In this document: piece by piece, positions 48,749 to 62,133 of the stretch | Layout of the letters: each line of letters starts with the position of its first letter | Numbering within the stretch: position 1 is the stretch's first letter | Source of the DNA: Tolypothrix sp. PCC 7910 | GTDB lineage: Bacteria; Cyanobacteriota; Cyanobacteriia; Cyanobacteriales; Nostocaceae | DNA length: 64,000 bases | Reading direction: 5' to 3' | NCBI RefSeq assembly: GCF_011769525.1 | Contig: NZ_CP050440.1 | Location: forward strand, 5,147,501 to 5,211,500 | The notes under the pieces: generated by a model | Seen by the model: the letters and a program-made list of their open reading frames with translations, nothing else | The model's database searches: none | Told to the model about the DNA's origin: nothing | Translations under genes and position numbers: made by a program

Positions 48749-49957
48749 TTAACTATACTTCCTTCCCCGCCACTCTTTAGGAGAGCGGAATGCAGATAAG
48801 AAGATTCGCAGCACAGCTAGAGGATCGGTTAAAGGTGAAAGCCAGAACAACCAGCCGCCTTTAGCAGTTGTGCGATCGTAGGAAGGTGCGATCGCCAGTA
48901 GCATTGCAAAGCGAATCACTAGCAAAAATATATTGAGTCCCAATAGCAAATTCAGAGGAAGTAGGGACGGCTGAGGAAATAGGAAAGCAAGCAAGCCGTA
49001 ACTAAGTAATATTAGTAGGGGTAAACCTTGCACTGCTGAGAGTAGCCATAAATCCCCCCAAATTTGGGCACGGGGCGATGCATCTTTCAGGTCTAGGCTG
49101 CGTCCCCATTCTTTCCATGTCTCGATTGCGCCCTCATACATTCGCACCTTTAGCACCTTCGCACCATCTAAAAAGCCTACTTTAAAGCCTTGAGCAGCAA
49201 TATAACGAGCTAAGGTGACATCATCACAAAAAGAACCACTGGCGCTGGTATAACCATCTACAGCGGCTAAAACCGAACGCCGACATAAAAAGCATTGGCC
49301 ATTAGCCATTACCCTTTCTGGTTGTTCTGTATTTACGCCAGCTGGATCAAATCGGTAAAGCAGAGTCATTAACAAAGCTGGTTGTAGCAAACATTCCCCT
49401 GGATATTTGAGAATAAACTGAGGTGAAAGGGATACCAAGTCATAACCTTGGGCTTTGGCTGTCTGCACCAAACCAGCAACCAAGCCCGGATGGGGCACAG
49501 TATCAGCATCCATGCCTAAAAACCATTCACTCTCTGGAGAACTCTGCAAAAAGCCATTATGTAAAGCCCAAGGACGACCCACCCAGCCAGCAGGTAACGG
49601 ATCATCTGTAAATAATCGAAAGCGAGGGTCTTGCTGTTGAGCAGCTTTTACCAATTGTGGCGTACCATCTTGCGACCTGCTATCTACAACAATCGCTTCC
49701 CTAACTTCATAACTTTGTTTACTTAAGCCAGTTAACAACGGGCTAATACGCGCAGCCTCATTCAATGTTGGCACTACAACGCTGACATTACCCAAAATAT
49801 CTGGTGTCGGCTGTTGGGGTTGAATCGGCGGATGGCGTGTCGGCCCCTTAAATAATCTTGAAAGTAGAATCGCTGTTGCTGGGATTTGCAGTAATAGTAA
49901 TAAAAGCGATAGGTTGCTAACTAAAATCAAAGCATCATCTCCTAGGGCATGGGGCAT
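48749..49957 (-). CDS. cruG: Carotenoid 2'-O-glycosyltransferase, CruG-type
   Basis: 402 residues, a GT2 glycosyltransferase. A hydrophobic N-terminus (about 8-36), then the GT-A domain with VSVVVPTLNEAARI, DxD-type MDADTVPHPG and, further on, FCDDVTLARY and WKEWGRSLDLK, and three or so membrane helices at the C-terminus (about 300-385). This matches CruG, which glycosylates the 2'-hydroxyl of myxol to form myxoxanthophyll. The assignment is strengthened by cruF immediately upstream on the same strand. The start at 49957 lies in a C-rich repeat stretch and lacks a clear ribosome site. Confidence 0.88.
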   Translation of the reverse strand: MPHALGDDALILVSNLSLLLLLLQIPATAILLSRLFKGPTRHPPIQPQQPTPDILGNVSVVVPTLNEAARISPLLTGLSKQSYEVREAIVVDSRSQDGTPQLVKAAQQQDPRFRLFTDDPLPAGWVGRPWALHNGFLQSSPESEWFLGMDADTVPHPGLVAGLVQTAKAQGYDLVSLSPQFILKYPGECLLQPALLMTLLYRFDPAGVNTEQPERVMANGQCFLCRRSVLAAVDGYTSASGSFCDDVTLARYIAAQGFKVGFLDGAKVLKVRMYEGAIETWKEWGRSLDLKDASPRAQIWGDLWLLSAVQGLPLLILLSYGLLAFLFPQPSLLPLNLLLGLNIFLLVIRFAMLLAIAPSYDRTTAKGGWLFWLSPLTDPLAVLRIFLSAFRSPKEWRGRKYS

Positions 49958-50013
49958 TGGGCAGTGCTGAGTTCTGAGTTCTGAGTCAAAAGTTATAGCT
50001 TCTTTATTTCATT

Positions 50014-50052
50014 CCCCAGTCCCCAGTCCCCAGTCCCCAGCCCCCAGTCCCT
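50014..50052. repeat. CCCCAGT heptamer repeat
   Basis: Five or so units of CCCCAGT lie between cruG and cruF. The same word is embedded in ppsA (32908-32942). A related TGAGTTC run is at 49972-49987. Confidence 0.9.
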
Positions 50053-50057
50053 CAAAA

Positions 50058-50963
50058 CTACTTCAAAGCAACTTTGACATTTGCTACTGAAATTTCCTGA
50101 GTTGCAGGTTCCATAGCAACAGGTTGTCCATTTGAACCTTGCCACCAAAGTGCTACAGCTGGAGCCACACCTATTAACAAGCCAAGCAATACAGGAATAG
50201 AGAAGCCAGCGGCCAAACTCATCACAGTAGCGAAAGTAAAGTTGCCTAAGTAAACGATCAAAGGCAAATTGAGTTGCGATCGCTCTAATTTAATGGGGTT
50301 GTTTCTCCACAGGAATGCTGCCACAGTCATAAATAGCGCTCCTGTTCCCATCCAGCCAGCAAAGTTTTGGTAAGGCATCCCAAAGAATGGGCCTGGTTGT
50401 TGCCAGTACCAGAAGGGGAGAGATGTTTGACTCATCGCTGGATCGAGTACAAAATCCCAAGAAGTTAATAACAAAGCACCTAATGCGATCGCACCTATAT
50501 GACGCAACAAGCTGGGCTTTTTGTCTACTTCTAAGCCAGCACGCGCCAACAGGTAAGAAACACATCCTACATAAAACCACGACAAAGGAATTGTGAAAGG
50601 CACTAAACCAGCAATTTTATAGCCCAGTCCACTTAGGTAACTATAGTGTCCAAAAGGAAAGCCTGTGCTGGTTCCCGACAGTTCACTTCCTAAGGAAATA
50701 AACACTGATGGCAGCAAAAATGCCAAAGCGCGACCCAATCCCAACGTCCGGTAGGCATACAAAAAGACAGCCGCTGCGCCCAAAATCATATAAACAACAC
50801 CGCCTCCAGCCATACTCCACTGCATGGCGGTTTGTCCAACCTCAGTTAGGTTCATAATAATTTCTGCATTCGGCACAACTAGTAGTATGCCTACAAGTCC
50901 AAACACCATTGACACGATATGACCAATCAGGCATACGCGCTCAGCAATAACAAGTTGTCTCAT
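50058..50963 (-). CDS. cruF: Carotenoid 1',2'-hydratase, CruF-type
   Basis: 301 residues with about seven membrane helices. Motifs include SELSGTSTGFPFGHYSY and TSWDFVLDPAMSQ, typical of CruF-like carotenoid hydratases (related to bisanhydrobacterioruberin hydratase). It adds water to the psi end of gamma-carotene-type precursors in myxoxanthophyll synthesis, before CruG. Start ATG 50963. It is directly upstream of cruG, 100 bases away, so the two are probably co-transcribed. Confidence 0.9.
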   Translation of the reverse strand: MRQLVIAERVCLIGHIVSMVFGLVGILLVVPNAEIIMNLTEVGQTAMQWSMAGGGVVYMILGAAAVFLYAYRTLGLGRALAFLLPSVFISLGSELSGTSTGFPFGHYSYLSGLGYKIAGLVPFTIPLSWFYVGCVSYLLARAGLEVDKKPSLLRHIGAIALGALLLTSWDFVLDPAMSQTSLPFWYWQQPGPFFGMPYQNFAGWMGTGALFMTVAAFLWRNNPIKLERSQLNLPLIVYLGNFTFATVMSLAAGFSIPVLLGLLIGVAPAVALWWQGSNGQPVAMEPATQEISVANVKVALK

Positions 50964-53360: not shown

Positions 53361-53681
53361 TTAACGATTACTAATGACTAACAAAAAACAACTACCATTT
53401 AATAAAGCTGTAATCACAGCACCAATAATTACACCTTTCATCATTGCTAGGCGCTGTTGTCTTCTGAGCAAAATGCATAAAGGGATGACATATAAAAGCT
53501 GCCAAATAAAAAATCCCCAACCGCCGATCAGCCAAATACCTAAATAACTATAATTAGTATAGCCAAATATTTGACCAGCAAGTAAACCTAATCCAAATAT
53601 GATGCCTACTGCTATCAAATGCAAACTAAATAAAATTAATATTCCTAAAAAAATCTGTAAACTTTCATTCCTTTGAGACAT
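53361..53681 (-). CDS. Small membrane protein in the Lgt-like/radical SAM cluster
   Basis: 106 residues with three predicted membrane helices (about 10-36, 45-72 and 80-104), short polar loops and a basic RRQQR in the second loop. No motif is recognised. It starts 36 bases after the radical SAM gene on the same strand, so it probably belongs to the same transcript. It may be a partner or lipid-binding subunit, which is inference from position only. Confidence 0.65.
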   Translation of the reverse strand: MSQRNESLQIFLGILILFSLHLIAVGIIFGLGLLAGQIFGYTNYSYLGIWLIGGWGFFIWQLLYVIPLCILLRRQQRLAMMKGVIIGAVITALLNGSCFLLVISNR

Positions 53682-53717
53682 TAATTCAGTCCTGTAGATA
53701 ACACTGATAAATTAGAT

Positions 53718-55136
53718 TTACGAATTACGATTATTCACTAAATGGTAGCCAGTGCTGCCTTCGCGGTAAAACATATTAAATGTATCAAATGGGATAATCC
53801 TACCATCTGGATGCACAATATGAATACAAGACCGCTTAACAGAACGGGCATCAAAGTTAAAAGCATCAAGAAACTGCACAATCATTACCCGAAATACATT
53901 GGAGTAGTTAATACCGTCTGGTACAGCAATCATTGGCAGACAACACAAAAGCTGCTTGAGCGATAAAGCCGCAGAGTTGGGTGAATGACTTGTTGAAAAT
54001 AATTCAAATATTTGTTTTTTTAGTTCTTCGTTTTGTTCATAAAGTACACTATTGGGCATAATTTTCACAAAAATATCTGGATTAATTAACCCAGTTAACG
54101 GTATTACTTGACCATTTAGCTTTAATGCATAAGCCATAGCTAAAGAATCAGGATGGCAGGGGACAGGGAGAATATCTTCTGGTTTAAAATAAGGACTCTG
54201 TTCTAAAATAGAGCGTCGGACTTCTGTTAAGGTATATCTGTCTTGCTTAGGGTCGAATCCTTCTAATCTTCCGGCTGCTTGTATTGGTTGAAATGTTACA
54301 CCTCTAATACATTTCTGCTGCAAAGCATACTCAATAATTTTCCCGATTTCTCCATCATTCAGCCCCTTTTTGAGGGTAACAACCAAAGTTGTAGAGATAT
54401 TATATTCGTTGAGATGTTCAATTGCTTTTTCCCTAACAGCCCGTAAATCCGCACCGCGTAACTCTTTTAAAGCTTCTAATTCAAAGCTATCAAATTGTAA
54501 ATATATCTCAATTCCCGGCATATATTGGCTGAGGCGATCGCAAAAAGATTTATCCTTAGCAATCATCACACCATTAGTATTGATCATCAAATGCTTAATC
54601 GGCTTAGTTTTGACAATATCGAGAATTTGAAAAAACTCAGGATGAATCGTAGGTTCTCCACCACTTAACTGCACTATCTGTGGTTCTCCTTCATTGGCGA
54701 CAACCGCATCAATCATTTTTTCAATTTGTGCTAGACTCCGATGCAGTCTTGCTTGATGGGAGATTTCTGAAAACTCTTCTGCACCGGAATCGGCATAACA
54801 TATAGGGCAGGAAAGATTACATTTATCTGTAATTTCTATTAATGTTAAACAGCTATGCTGTTCATGATCGGGGCAAAGTCCACAATCATAAGGACAGCCA
54901 TATTTTATAGGTGTATTAAACTTTAATGGCATATCTCCAGGTTTAATAAACTCTAGAGATTTTTTATAATATTCAATATCATCCGCGATTAAAACTTCTT
55001 CTCGTCCGTGGGTAGGACAGTGCTTTACTAAGTAAACACAATCATCTTGAAATATAATTTTTGCTTCTACCTTGACTAGGCATTTTGAACAAACACTATT
55101 AGTTAAGGCGTAAAATAGATAATTACGAGTAGGCAT
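53718..55136 (-). CDS. Radical SAM protein, Tes/MJ0619-like
   Basis: 472 residues. The N-terminal ~95 residues carry several cysteine pairs (Cys16/19, Cys33, Cys40, Cys81, Cys85, Cys88, Cys96; CPYDCGLCPDHEQH), as in the MJ0619/tetraether synthase group. The radical SAM core has CxxxCxxC at Cys106, 110 and 113 (DKCNLSCPICYADSG) and the GGEP motif. The C-terminus ends in a conserved-looking SCIHIVHPDGRIIPFDTFNMFYR block. Enzymes in this group act on lipids or couple alkyl chains. It is likely cytosolic or membrane associated. Upstream is the Lgt-like gene, 54 bases away. Confidence 0.85.
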   Translation of the reverse strand: MPTRNYLFYALTNSVCSKCLVKVEAKIIFQDDCVYLVKHCPTHGREEVLIADDIEYYKKSLEFIKPGDMPLKFNTPIKYGCPYDCGLCPDHEQHSCLTLIEITDKCNLSCPICYADSGAEEFSEISHQARLHRSLAQIEKMIDAVVANEGEPQIVQLSGGEPTIHPEFFQILDIVKTKPIKHLMINTNGVMIAKDKSFCDRLSQYMPGIEIYLQFDSFELEALKELRGADLRAVREKAIEHLNEYNISTTLVVTLKKGLNDGEIGKIIEYALQQKCIRGVTFQPIQAAGRLEGFDPKQDRYTLTEVRRSILEQSPYFKPEDILPVPCHPDSLAMAYALKLNGQVIPLTGLINPDIFVKIMPNSVLYEQNEELKKQIFELFSTSHSPNSAALSLKQLLCCLPMIAVPDGINYSNVFRVMIVQFLDAFNFDARSVKRSCIHIVHPDGRIIPFDTFNMFYREGSTGYHLVNNRNS

Positions 55137-55190
55137 GATAATTATGAATGATAAATTAAATTATTAAAAGCCTTCAGAGCCAAAGGGAAA

Positions 55191-55934
55191 TCAGGTTTGA
55201 AATTGAAATATCTGAGTAATTGTGCGGCGATAGTACACAATAGTTAATAAACAAGCAGCTTGAATCGCACTCAAACCTAAGAATGGATGGAAATTTGGTT
55301 TAATGAAATCTACCAGAAAACGAAAGGTAAAATAAGAAATTAAATAAAATTTAAATAAATCGCCATTTTGATATTGATAGCGACTGCGAAATTGCAAAAA
55401 TATAACTAGCAAGCTTAAAAATAAGACTTCATACAATTGTGTGGGGTGGCGGAGAATACCATCACCAAAATCTATACCCCAAGGTAATTTCGTAGCGATT
55501 CCATAAGTGCGATCGCTCAATCCTGTGAGAAAGCATCCAATTCTACCAATGGCTGTGCCTACAATCAAAGGATAAACAAATACATCACCTGTAGACTGAT
55601 GAACTCCAATGATTTTTTTGGTGGTTTCTACACCAATCAATCCCCCTAAAAGTGCCCCGACGACTGTTTTACCCTGGAGTAAGAGTAATATAAACTGCTG
55701 TTGATTTTGCCAAATCAAATCAATATGTTCCAGCCCTACTAAAAGTTTTGCTCCAATTAAAGCGCCTATCATACCACCAACAATTACAGAACTACGCTGG
55801 CTAGGTGCGATCGCATCTTTACGGATGCGAAGTAGTAACAAGCGAAAGGATATAGCATAAGCTAAAGATTCAAACAAAATATGAGGATGAATGCTTAACG
55901 AACCTAACCAAATATAAACAGGGAAAGTCATCAT
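55191..55934 (-). CDS. Lgt-family membrane protein lacking canonical catalytic residues
   Basis: 247 residues from ATG 55934 (MMTFPVYIWLGSLSIHPHIL), with about seven membrane helices. The Lgt signature region is present as GRIGCFLTGLSDRTYG and RHPTQLYE. Compared with E. coli Lgt (recalled), Asn146 is Cys, Glu151 is Leu, the His103 motif HGG is replaced by ALLGG, and Arg239 is Lys. It is therefore unlikely to be the housekeeping prolipoprotein diacylglyceryl transferase. The frame extends upstream to ATG 56006, but the extra residues do not look like the family. It is next to the radical SAM gene. Confidence 0.8.
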   Translation of the reverse strand: MMTFPVYIWLGSLSIHPHILFESLAYAISFRLLLLRIRKDAIAPSQRSSVIVGGMIGALIGAKLLVGLEHIDLIWQNQQQFILLLLQGKTVVGALLGGLIGVETTKKIIGVHQSTGDVFVYPLIVGTAIGRIGCFLTGLSDRTYGIATKLPWGIDFGDGILRHPTQLYEVLFLSLLVIFLQFRSRYQYQNGDLFKFYLISYFTFRFLVDFIKPNFHPFLGLSAIQAACLLTIVYYRRTITQIFQFQT

Positions 55935-56207
55935 AATTCGTAATTTGTAGTTAGAATCAGTGCTAATACAAGTTCCAATAATTTTGGAAACATATAAATT
56001 ATTCATAAGGACACAACAATGTTGTGCCCCTAAGTATCATCGCATTCTTTTTCAGCATTAAATTGGTAATTTTTATATCAATTACAAGCCTTAAGCAAAA
56101 AATCTAAATAAAGTCGTTTGACAATAATTTGAAAACTTTTTGGTTGAAATTAAATATGAATTACTAGCGCTTTATGCTTACCATAAAATATTATGATTTG
56201 GTAATTA

Positions 56208-57981: not shown

Positions 57982-59349
57982 ATGACAGGCAAATACTCAA
58001 GACATAATGCATTTCTGCGGCTAGTGTCTGGTAATGGAGCACCATCAAGGTCAGAATCCCGCTACTCGCTGCTCCCCAGTAAAGAGATGATAATTGGACG
58101 CGACCCTAGCTGCCAAATTGTCTTGGATGCCATGATGTACCGGATGGTATCTCGTCGTCATGCTGTGGTTCGTCCCCTCTCTTCATCTCCAGATAACAAG
58201 TTCAGCTGGCTAATTTGTGATTTGAATAGTGCGAATGGCACATATTTAAATGGACAACGGTTACAAGGTTGTCAGGAATTACACTCAGGCGATCGCATTT
58301 CTTTGGGTACTGATGGCCCCCAGTTTGTGTTTGAGCATGAGTATATCTCCCAAGCTACAATTATGACCAGGCCGGCAAACCCCCTACCTTCAGCCGGGAG
58401 CTTCCCAGGTCAGTCTAAATCGGATTCGGTGAGTTTTACTCAACTGTTTCCTATTATTTCTACTGGTAAAGATTTAACTCGTAAAGCTTACCTAGTTCCA
58501 GGAATTTTGACAGTTGTTTTTGTGGTACTCATGTTTGCTACGGTAGGCCAACCGCAAGCAAATCAAGTTATTGTAGCGAGTTATATAGCTTTTGCTGCCT
58601 ATTACTTTGTTTATCAACTTTGCGGCAAACAAAAACCTTGGTGGGTACTTTTATCTGTGGCGTTGGGTACGGCACTGATTTTGAAAAGTCCCTTGCTGGA
58701 TTTATTTATCTTTGTTTTTCGGGGTATTTTGCCTGGTAGCTTACCCTCTGCCCAAGATTCGATTACTTTCACCGAATTACTAGTGCGAATGTTCTTTGGT
58801 GCTGGTTTAATGGAGGAGTTACTGAAAGCATTACCTGTATTAGCAGCACTAATTATCGGTATTTTATTGCCCTCACCTTGGCGAGAACGTATCGGCATCT
58901 GGGAACCTTTAGATGGAATTCTCTTGGGTACTGCTTCTGCTGTAGGCTTCACCCTGTTAGAAACTCTTGGTCAATATGTGCCTGTAATTACTCAAAATGT
59001 TGCTCAACAAGCGGGAGTAGGAACTGGTCAATTAGTAGGATTGCAATTACTAATTCCGCGCATTTTAGGCTCTGTCGCCGGACACATGGCTTATAGTGGC
59101 TATTTGGGATATTTTATTGGCTTGGCTGTTCTGAAGCCGCGTCTAATTTGGCAAATTCTGCCAATTGGTTATGTTAGCGCTGCAGCACTCCATGCATTGT
59201 GGAACGCTACTGGTTCGATTAATGCTTTGCTATTGGTAATTGTCGGGGTGTTGTCTTACGCCTTTTTGATGGCGGCAATTTTGAAGGCACGGGCGCTCTC
59301 GCCAACGCGATCGCAGAATTTTGCTACCCGTTTTCTGGGGCCTAGGTAA
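57982..59349 (+). CDS. FHA domain fused to a PrsW-type intramembrane protease
   Basis: 455 residues. The N-terminal FHA domain (about 20-118: MIIGRDPSCQIVLD, VSRRHAVV, SNANGTYLNG-like NSANGTYLNG) binds phosphothreonine. A linker leads to a PrsW-like membrane domain with Glu278/Glu279 (MEELLKALPV), His368 (AGHMAYSG) and His404 (ALHALWNAT), the expected metal-ligand pattern of intramembrane metalloproteases. It would cut a membrane protein when its FHA domain meets a phosphorylated partner; the substrate is unknown. Two genes nearby also carry FHA or PP2C domains. Confidence 0.88.
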   Translation: MTGKYSRHNAFLRLVSGNGAPSRSESRYSLLPSKEMIIGRDPSCQIVLDAMMYRMVSRRHAVVRPLSSSPDNKFSWLICDLNSANGTYLNGQRLQGCQELHSGDRISLGTDGPQFVFEHEYISQATIMTRPANPLPSAGSFPGQSKSDSVSFTQLFPIISTGKDLTRKAYLVPGILTVVFVVLMFATVGQPQANQVIVASYIAFAAYYFVYQLCGKQKPWWVLLSVALGTALILKSPLLDLFIFVFRGILPGSLPSAQDSITFTELLVRMFFGAGLMEELLKALPVLAALIIGILLPSPWRERIGIWEPLDGILLGTASAVGFTLLETLGQYVPVITQNVAQQAGVGTGQLVGLQLLIPRILGSVAGHMAYSGYLGYFIGLAVLKPRLIWQILPIGYVSAAALHALWNATGSINALLLVIVGVLSYAFLMAAILKARALSPTRSQNFATRFLGPR

Positions 59350-60543: not shown

Positions 60544-62133
60544 TTAAGACTCTTCAATCAGAAATTCCCATGTTTCACCTCTAGAACTACCAAACTTTAA
60601 CTGCATTCCCGATGTTAGAAGGACTTCCTCGCGGAGGATTTGTTGCCAACCATTAGCACTAAAAACCCAAGTAGTCCCATAGGTAGATAAATCTTGCAAG
60701 TAATAAGTTCTTACCGGAGTATTACCAGCGAAAGTATTGCGGCAGATAATTTCCGCATGGCGTTTAGAAACTGAAGGTTCTGGAATAATAATATCGTTGT
60801 CTTTTATGCGACCAATCCGAGTGACTCCAGAACGTAACAACCAGGTTTTACCTCCTGGTGAAAGCGATCGCAAAAAAGCTGTAGGTACCGAGGCAATTAT
60901 ACTCGGAATAGTAGTATCTGGTAGCTCTGTAATTCCCTCATCAAAACTTTTAATCAGTTCGCCACAAAAATCTGGATGCTGATAGAGAACTGGTAAAGTC
61001 CATGCAGGTTGATTGAACTTATATACTGTTAATAATTCTTGTCTAGCTTCTGCTACAGCCTCATCAATTGGCTTGCGCGATCGCAATGCTTCGGTAAAAG
61101 CTTGAATAAAACTGTGGCTTTCTTGATCAGCAATTTCATCGCGCATTCCTAACACTGCTGGTACGCCATGACGAATTAGCACTTCTGCCAAGCTACTAGA
61201 CGGTATAGCTTGGTTATTTGCAGATGCCGGTTGTGCACCCCAACAAGCATTAAAAACTGCTAATTTCACACCATTTCTAGTCAATACTTGGGCTAATTCT
61301 ATGCCATTTAGCCTCATCCCCGGCCGTAATAATAGTAAACCGCCATCTGGATCGGGAAAACCATGTCCGGCATAGAAAAAGACGTTGTAAGCTTTAGTTT
61401 CCAACTCCTCAATCAACTCTTGGGGGGTGGGTTGCAGCAACGTATGTACCATACATGGTGCATATCCTTGGGAATTGCTACCTAATGGCCCAGCCTTTGT
61501 TAGGGTTTGGGTTAAAATGTCTGCTTCTTTCTCCAAATCTAAATCCTGATCTTCTCCTAAAACCAAGAGAATATTCAAAGCTTGATCTGTTCGTAAATAA
61601 GGCAGTGATTCGACTTCACTGGTTGTCCGGCTAAATACTATATCTTGGGAGAGAGACATTGCCGATTGACCCGGCTCGCGTTGCATAATCTCCCAAGGTA
61701 AAGCAATCAAATCTGGATCACGAATTTCCAACCGCAAGCGCAAGCGTGTATGCAGTCCCATAGCCATACCTCGACTGCGTTCTAAACTGCCAAGAATTGG
61801 CCCATCAAATAACCAGCGCCACAAACTAATTCCCAGGTATTGCATTAAGCGGCTACTGTAGCCAGCCGTTTGACCTGAAGGGGATGAAACTATGTTCAAT
61901 GGTAATGGCGCTGTCTGTGGCAGTGCTGAACGCGAGGAAATACCTAAGGGAGTATGACCAGCAAACATTTCTTGCCATTCTTGCCAAACTTGAGAGAGTT
62001 CAGCCGGCCAGATACAGTCATGCAAAACATAGCCACTAGGATAAGGAGCCTTCACAACCCAGATGGCAAAGTTATCAGTGCCGGTGTTGGTTAAACGAGC
62101 GAGCGCCAGGTTCAGGCATGGCAATGGATTCAT
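60544..62133 (-). CDS. CHAT peptidase domain fused to a C-terminal FHA domain
   Basis: 529 residues. The CHAT domain (about 180-400) has a caspase-type dyad, His257 (FYAGHGFPDPDGG) and Cys297 (VFNACWGAQ). The region before it (about 1-180) has no recognised motif. The C-terminal FHA domain (about 425-520) has RIGRIKDNDIIIPEPSVSKRHAEII. It may be a protease activated or located by binding a phosphothreonine peptide. No signal peptide. The PP2C gene is 201 bases upstream and may control the phosphorylated partner. Confidence 0.88.
   Translation of the reverse strand: MNPLPCLNLALARLTNTGTDNFAIWVVKAPYPSGYVLHDCIWPAELSQVWQEWQEMFAGHTPLGISSRSALPQTAPLPLNIVSSPSGQTAGYSSRLMQYLGISLWRWLFDGPILGSLERSRGMAMGLHTRLRLRLEIRDPDLIALPWEIMQREPGQSAMSLSQDIVFSRTTSEVESLPYLRTDQALNILLVLGEDQDLDLEKEADILTQTLTKAGPLGSNSQGYAPCMVHTLLQPTPQELIEELETKAYNVFFYAGHGFPDPDGGLLLLRPGMRLNGIELAQVLTRNGVKLAVFNACWGAQPASANNQAIPSSSLAEVLIRHGVPAVLGMRDEIADQESHSFIQAFTEALRSRKPIDEAVAEARQELLTVYKFNQPAWTLPVLYQHPDFCGELIKSFDEGITELPDTTIPSIIASVPTAFLRSLSPGGKTWLLRSGVTRIGRIKDNDIIIPEPSVSKRHAEIICRNTFAGNTPVRTYYLQDLSTYGTTWVFSANGWQQILREEVLLTSGMQLKFGSSRGETWEFLIEES

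Follow-up and report, generated by a model that had tools for sequence, protein, structure and literature searches.

The window analyzed here is a stretch of 64,000 nucleotides from Tolypothrix sp. PCC 7910 (contig NZ_CP050440.1), whose 8.8 Mb genome (G000) is of the Nostocales type, and the closest named loci belong to Nostoc carneum and N. linckia. Three of its genes are arranged in the order Lgt-like protein, radical SAM enzyme, and small membrane protein (Table 1), with intergenic gaps of 54 and 36 bases; the three-gene minus-strand layout described in the initial annotation is borne out by the coordinates of the open reading frames. An in-frame ATG is also found upstream of the Lgt-like gene at position 56006, outside the conserved start of the family.

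Table 1. Genes and protein features of the locus, in window coordinates.
Feature	Position	Strand	Basis
Lgt-like integral membrane protein, 247 aa, Y26H/H103V/N146C variant	55191..55934	(-)	PF01790, Lgt fold, tree position among radical SAM-associated Lgt-like proteins
Radical SAM enzyme of the Tes/TrsS superfamily, 472 aa, altered C-terminal auxiliary-cluster ligands	53718..55136	(-)	Pfam and NCBIfam profiles, 7TOL/7TOM model match, ligand table
Small membrane protein, 106 aa, approximately 3 TM, third system member	53361..53681	(-)	Homologues encoded immediately after the radical SAM enzyme
Variant Lgt signature GRIGCFLTGLSDRTYG, residues 130-145, N146C, in the Lgt-like protein	55500..55547	(-)	Alignment and tree
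Cys398-Cys399, pair specific to the family, radical SAM C-terminal domain	53940..53945	(-)	Present in 46/48 family rows, absent from Tes-side proteins

At 97 bits, the Lgt-like protein clears the cut-off of the Pfam LGT family (PF01790; 24.9), and it does not reach the NCBIfam equivalog TIGR00544, for which it scores 53 bits (cut-off 118.9). The ordinary lgt of the host genome is located elsewhere and scores 285 bits versus 97; the gene in the window is therefore a paralogue, and its identification as the ordinary Lgt of the host was rejected. In terms of predicted fold, the sole significant PDB match is E. coli Lgt (5AZB; probability 1.00, TM 0.56), and the tree places every radical SAM-associated Lgt-like protein in a single clade (100/100), separate from the canonical Lgts of the same genomes.

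Residues were compared in an alignment with E. coli Lgt and 46 relatives, using E. coli numbering. R239, R143, Y235, D129, H196, G142, and G145 are kept in all 47 aligned family members, and R143, R239, and Y235 are retained in every complete member of the alignment and tree set. Relative to the E. coli enzyme, Y26 is replaced by His, H103 by Val, N146 by Cys, and R246 by Lys; the first three of these replacements recur in essentially all members of the family, the His103 position being hydrophobic in nearly all of them, and the Glu151 region instead has an invariant Asp (GLxDxTxG), within the family signature GRxGCFxxGLxDxTxG. The initial annotation had listed His103, Asn146, Glu151, and Arg239 as essential residues that are replaced, which stands for the first three and fails for Arg239; likewise, a loss of all Lgt catalytic residues was rejected in view of the conserved R143 and R239. 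R143, R239, and Y235 line the phosphatidylglycerol (PG) site of Lgt (PMC4728403); both arginines of the E. coli enzyme are essential, as are H103 and Y26 (PMC4728403, PMC13251419). Because R143 and R239 are conserved while H103 and Y26 are replaced, the residue pattern suggests that the PG donor site has been kept and that the acceptor side has been changed. N146C was also considered as a hallmark of the group and discarded, since it is present in ordinary-looking acidobacterial Lgts.

The fold, R143, R239, Y235, D129, H196, and the GRxG motif are thus held in common with E. coli Lgt (5AZB), from which the Lgt-like protein differs by its four replacements (Y26H/H103V/N146C/R246K), by a clade of its own, and by its presence in archaea that have no other Lgt. 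A second Lgt homologue of M. smegmatis, MSMEG_5408, is likewise reported to carry Y26H and N146C, and no radical SAM link was found for it or for divergent Lgt subgroups in the relevant portion of that report (PMC13251419); the most divergent subgroup described there lacks R143 and R239, both of which are kept in the present family.

The second protein combines a Pfam Radical_SAM domain (79 bits) with an HMPTM/MJ0619-type zinc ribbon (62 bits), and its best relative of solved structure is tetraether synthase (Tes; 7TOL, E 1e-60), in agreement with the N-terminus of MJ0619/tetraether-synthase type first read from the sequence. Its predicted model matches 7TOL and 7TOM with TM 0.78-0.80 over the whole length, and ligands are kept at three of the four Tes metal sites, namely the rubredoxin-type site (C-x2-C-x20-C-x2-H), the N-terminal auxiliary cluster (C-x3-C-x2-C plus a His), and the radical SAM site (CX3CX2C), all of which, together with the fold, are common to Tes/GDGT-MAS (MJ0619; 7TOL, 7TOM). 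At the fourth site, for which C455 and C470 of Tes are assigned as C-terminal cluster ligands by inference from conservation, the two positions are invariant in Tes and Cys in nearly all other relatives of the ligand table, but Ser/Thr/Ala and Asp/Glu, respectively, in all 48 rows of the window's family. Since these C-terminal cysteines are replaced and a new Cys-Cys is present, the radical SAM enzyme is not a Tes. It scores 268.6 bits against the NCBIfam Tes profile NF045702 (cut-off 450), and its family is split from Tes by a fully supported branch in a tree built by a quick method; its Lgt-like partner is a further difference, with no Lgt-like neighbours of Tes-side proteins found in the flanks examined. 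The new Cys398-Cys399 lies inside residues 356-405 of the model, where pLDDT falls below 50, and it is the C-terminal domain, which would close the lipid pocket, that is poorly modelled there. Two sister lineages (L210 and L211) have neither the Cys-Cys nor a detectable Lgt-like gene, a co-loss that, as a single event, is no more than suggestive.

Given Tes as the closest solved relative, the radical SAM enzyme could be thought to perform Tes/Mss-type tail-to-tail coupling for membrane-spanning lipids, with the Lgt-like protein adjusting head groups or supplying substrate, as bacterial Tes/Mss homologues have been proposed or shown to make such lipids (PMC8941075, PMC13274423). However, the work on Tes metal sites and mechanism has tail coupling run through the C-terminal cluster (PMC9433317), and because this cluster has lost its Cys ligands throughout the family, tail coupling is possible but not favored, and rather unlikely in our estimate; the lack of Lgt-like neighbours on the Tes side in those flanks speaks against it as well. 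In Acidobacteriota, moreover, the family occurs in 12 of 199 genomes, with a separate longer Tes-like protein in most of the matching genomes. Such a rare distribution is therefore unlike the wide one of iso-diabolic acid, which is reported to be common in subdivisions 1 and 3 (a title cited in PMC11868695). Bacterial Mss, compared by description only, is reported to have the Tes architecture likewise and is described with Ger in iso-diabolic acid-making anaerobes, with no Lgt partner mentioned (PMC13274423).

Among the NCBIfam profiles, the best match of the radical SAM protein is TrsS (NF045646), covering the whole length at 309.6 bits, below the cut-off of 490; the best E-value of this profile among 28 family members is 5.6e-99, to which the window's protein is close (2.8e-92). 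A sulfur or selenium lipid pathway common to TrsS-type systems, or another, non-lipid TrsS-like reaction, would be in keeping with an enzyme that is nearer TrsS than Tes by score and apart from Tes in the tree, with one Bacillota relative whose pair precedes genes for a permease, a Se/S-carrier-like protein, and a sulfur-transport/PEMT fusion, and with another relative having an in-frame TGA shortly after a Cys-Cys. The window's family, on the other hand, has no such neighbours, the window's enzyme has no Sec, its C-terminal ligands differ from those of the TrsS-like relatives examined, and the paired proteins tested all fall below the TrsS cut-off, while we know of no substrate for TrsS itself. 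The sulfur link of the system is only hinted at, and this explanation is considered very unlikely.

No match to Pfam or NCBIfam was found for the small protein, in which the motif QxxYxxP...KG...LLNxxC can be recognized. In cyanobacteria, Paenibacillus, Acidobacteriota, and Planctomycetota, homologues are encoded immediately after the radical SAM enzyme. Other phyla often show a 4-base overlap between the radical SAM stop and a small membrane ORF whose relationship to this protein is uncertain. The earlier description of an unclassified three-helix membrane protein is consistent with its approximately three TM helices and the absence of profile matches, yet the protein belongs to a conserved family.

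A radical SAM enzyme of 51-98% identity together with an Lgt-like protein is encountered in Cyanobacteriota, Acidobacteriota, Planctomycetota, and Verrucomicrobiota, and the pair extends to Gemmatimonadota, Bacteroidota/Chlorobi, Bacillota, and marine group II (MGII) archaea. The genome tallies refer to samples and mostly to drafts, and kinship inflates simple significance figures. Among 386 cyanobacterial genomes, 10 contain the radical SAM enzyme, and the Lgt-like protein is present in 9 of these 10 and in none of the others (hypergeometric approximately 2e-17, hand-calculated with kinship ignored). Where the neighbour is unlinked or missing in cyanobacteria, the Lgt-like gene is located elsewhere in 11 of the 13 genomes searched, the two misses being MAGs, and no other shared partner was found at the unlinked Lgt-like loci; four radical SAM genomes (G004, G1048, G988, and G1074) have no detectable Lgt-like gene, most genomes being drafts. 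All 12 acidobacterial genomes with the radical SAM enzyme also possess the Lgt-like protein, and the sole apparent Lgt-like orphan of this phylum (G418) is situated at a contig end. In Planctomycetota, the enzyme occurs in 18 of 199 genomes (51-67% identity, E <1e-140), the majority of the genes having an Lgt-like neighbour within short flanks, and in Bacillota it occurs in 2 of 199; more distant pairs, some with reversed gene order, are found in Planctomycetota, Bacillota, and Acidobacteriota. The pair is carried by 6 of 119 MGII genomes (G390, G624, G636, G642, G658, and G666), each of which has exactly one Lgt-family gene, the paired one, and no Lgt-family gene was found in seven MGII relatives without the pair; an MGII contig (L067) bears archaeal genes including PCNA, as read from its sequence. 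The pairing proposed in the initial annotation, for which a survey of co-occurrence and synteny had been suggested, is thereby upheld, as the gene neighbourhood is conserved, and so is co-occurrence at the genome level, across phyla and in archaea. No link between Lgt and a Tes-type radical SAM enzyme was found in open-licence papers.

The two proteins also diverge together: distances among radical SAM enzymes and among their Lgt-like partners are correlated with a Mantel r of 0.84 over 52 pairs, a value reached in 0 of 9999 permutations. In both trees, some members of the cyanobacterial phylum are grouped with Acidobacteriota and Planctomycetota, the pattern expected of joint transfer. Coincidental neighbours with unrelated functions, an explanation that could draw on the unlinked genes of several cyanobacteria, are essentially refuted by the co-occurrence in those unlinked genomes, the existence of both gene orders, the shared inter-phylum transfers, and the correlated distances.

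Since the three genes are found repeatedly side by side, or at least within one genome, in many bacterial phyla and in marine archaea without an ordinary Lgt, they probably constitute an undescribed membrane-lipid-modifying system. The simplest reading of a lipid-type radical enzyme that travels with an Lgt derivative retaining the PG site is that both act on one membrane lipid; it is on balance probable that they form a small, horizontally mobile modification system that uses a phosphatidylglycerol-type lipid, the radical SAM and Lgt-like enzymes contributing to the same lipid product. What the analysis shows is homology, fold, the patterns of metal ligands and catalytic residues, co-occurrence, correlated divergence, and occurrence in archaea that have no other Lgt; the lipid substrate, the use of PG, the acceptor, the order of steps, and the product, like the chemical step as a whole, are inferred. 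The radical SAM protein, either cytosolic or peripheral, would abstract hydrogen from a lipid alkyl chain, and the reaction would be completed at the re-ligated C-terminal iron-sulfur site. The Lgt-like membrane enzyme would still bind a phosphatidylglycerol-type lipid via the two Lgt arginines and would transfer or rearrange the diacylglyceryl group, with an acceptor that is not the ordinary prolipoprotein lipobox cysteine, and the small three-helix protein may serve as an accessory or anchoring subunit. Membership in the Tes superfamily by itself does not prove a lipid substrate; in two distant relatives, genes of the phospholipid/isoprenylcysteine-methyltransferase type lie close by (the L124 ORF was read by eye). 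Cyanobacterial lipidomes are well studied, and we know of no unexplained major lipid among them.

In a more specific version of the proposed system, regarded as rather unlikely, the radical SAM enzyme would activate a lipid tail, which would then accept diacylglyceryl from the Lgt-like enzyme, such that a class of radical-made, Lgt-capped lipids would occur in cyanobacteria, acidobacteria, planctomycetes, and MGII archaea. Tail activation might involve sulfur that the re-ligated C-terminal cluster donates or holds. This would account for a thiol-type transferase encoded next to a radical enzyme for lipid tails, whose known relative passes through a carbon-sulfur intermediate.

Judging by residues and gene distribution, a role of the Lgt-like protein in general lipoprotein maturation is unlikely, because pair-bearing bacteria keep their own Lgt and pair-bearing archaea have no other, and because the His103 position is hydrophobic and no conserved lipoprotein gene lies nearby. 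The hydrophobic His103 position and the lack of another Lgt gene in MGII archaea also weigh against a specialized lipoprotein system, in which the Lgt-like protein would have a single dedicated protein as its lipidation target, whose lipid or peptide the radical SAM enzyme would modify further. Such a system would accord with the Lgt ancestry of the protein and with the lipobox protein that adjoins the pair at a few acidobacterial and planctomycetal loci (L052, L059, L060, and L061), but a search for a conserved lipoprotein substrate returned candidate lipobox ORFs near only 10 of 102 loci, not resembling one family, and this explanation is deemed distinctly unlikely. Of the earlier suggestion that a divergent lipid enzyme beside a lipid-type radical SAM enzyme marks a new step in membrane-lipid or lipoprotein chemistry, the predicted pairing has proved conserved, and the lipoprotein half is weakened by the archaea without another Lgt and the lack of a conserved lipoprotein gene.

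Lgt has so far been considered to serve lipoprotein maturation alone. If the proposed lipid-modifying system is real, a branch of the Lgt family dedicated to partnership with a lipid-type radical enzyme, occurring even in archaea that have no other Lgt gene, would represent a second function of the Lgt fold and would imply that soil and mat cyanobacteria, as well as marine archaea, contain a membrane lipid not yet described. Among the bacterial and MGII "Tes homologues" listed as potential GDGT producers are proteins that fail the Tes ligand test, and the Tes-like proteins found in the six MGII genomes belong to the Lgt-paired family and provide no evidence of a GDGT synthase. Culturable hosts, such as Nostoc, Fischerella, Terriglobus, and Paenibacillus, render the system directly testable.

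Several minor observations were made alongside. Tes-like radical SAM proteins of 630-860 aa, with an N-terminal extension and without the N-auxiliary cluster motif, are found in L110, L113 (Terriglobus roseus), and many Acidobacteriota, and this family is a candidate for the coupling enzyme of iso-diabolic acid or brGDGT. In a few Acidobacteriaceae (L059, L060, and L061), a lipoprotein-like ORF with AC-FLPP at the lipobox lies upstream of the radical SAM gene. A Bacillota cluster (L226:8770-14642) encodes a TrsS-like radical SAM protein, an Lgt-like protein, an ArsP-type permease, a Se/S carrier-like protein, and a sulfur-transport/PEMT-ICMT fusion. At L229:8253-9617, an Lgt-paired radical SAM relative has an in-frame TGA at codon 382, shortly after a Cys-Cys, possibly a selenocysteine or a sequencing error; another Bacillota relative (L179) was rejected as a selenoprotein, since its reading frame has no internal TGA. 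Elsewhere in the window, as read from the sequence, a glycosyltransferase gene adjoining a membrane protein resembles the carotenoid CruF/CruG pair (48749-50963, minus strand), an FHA-domain protein has a PrsW-like membrane part (57982-59349, plus strand), and an apparent fusion joins a CHAT-type protease to an FHA domain (60544-62133, minus strand).
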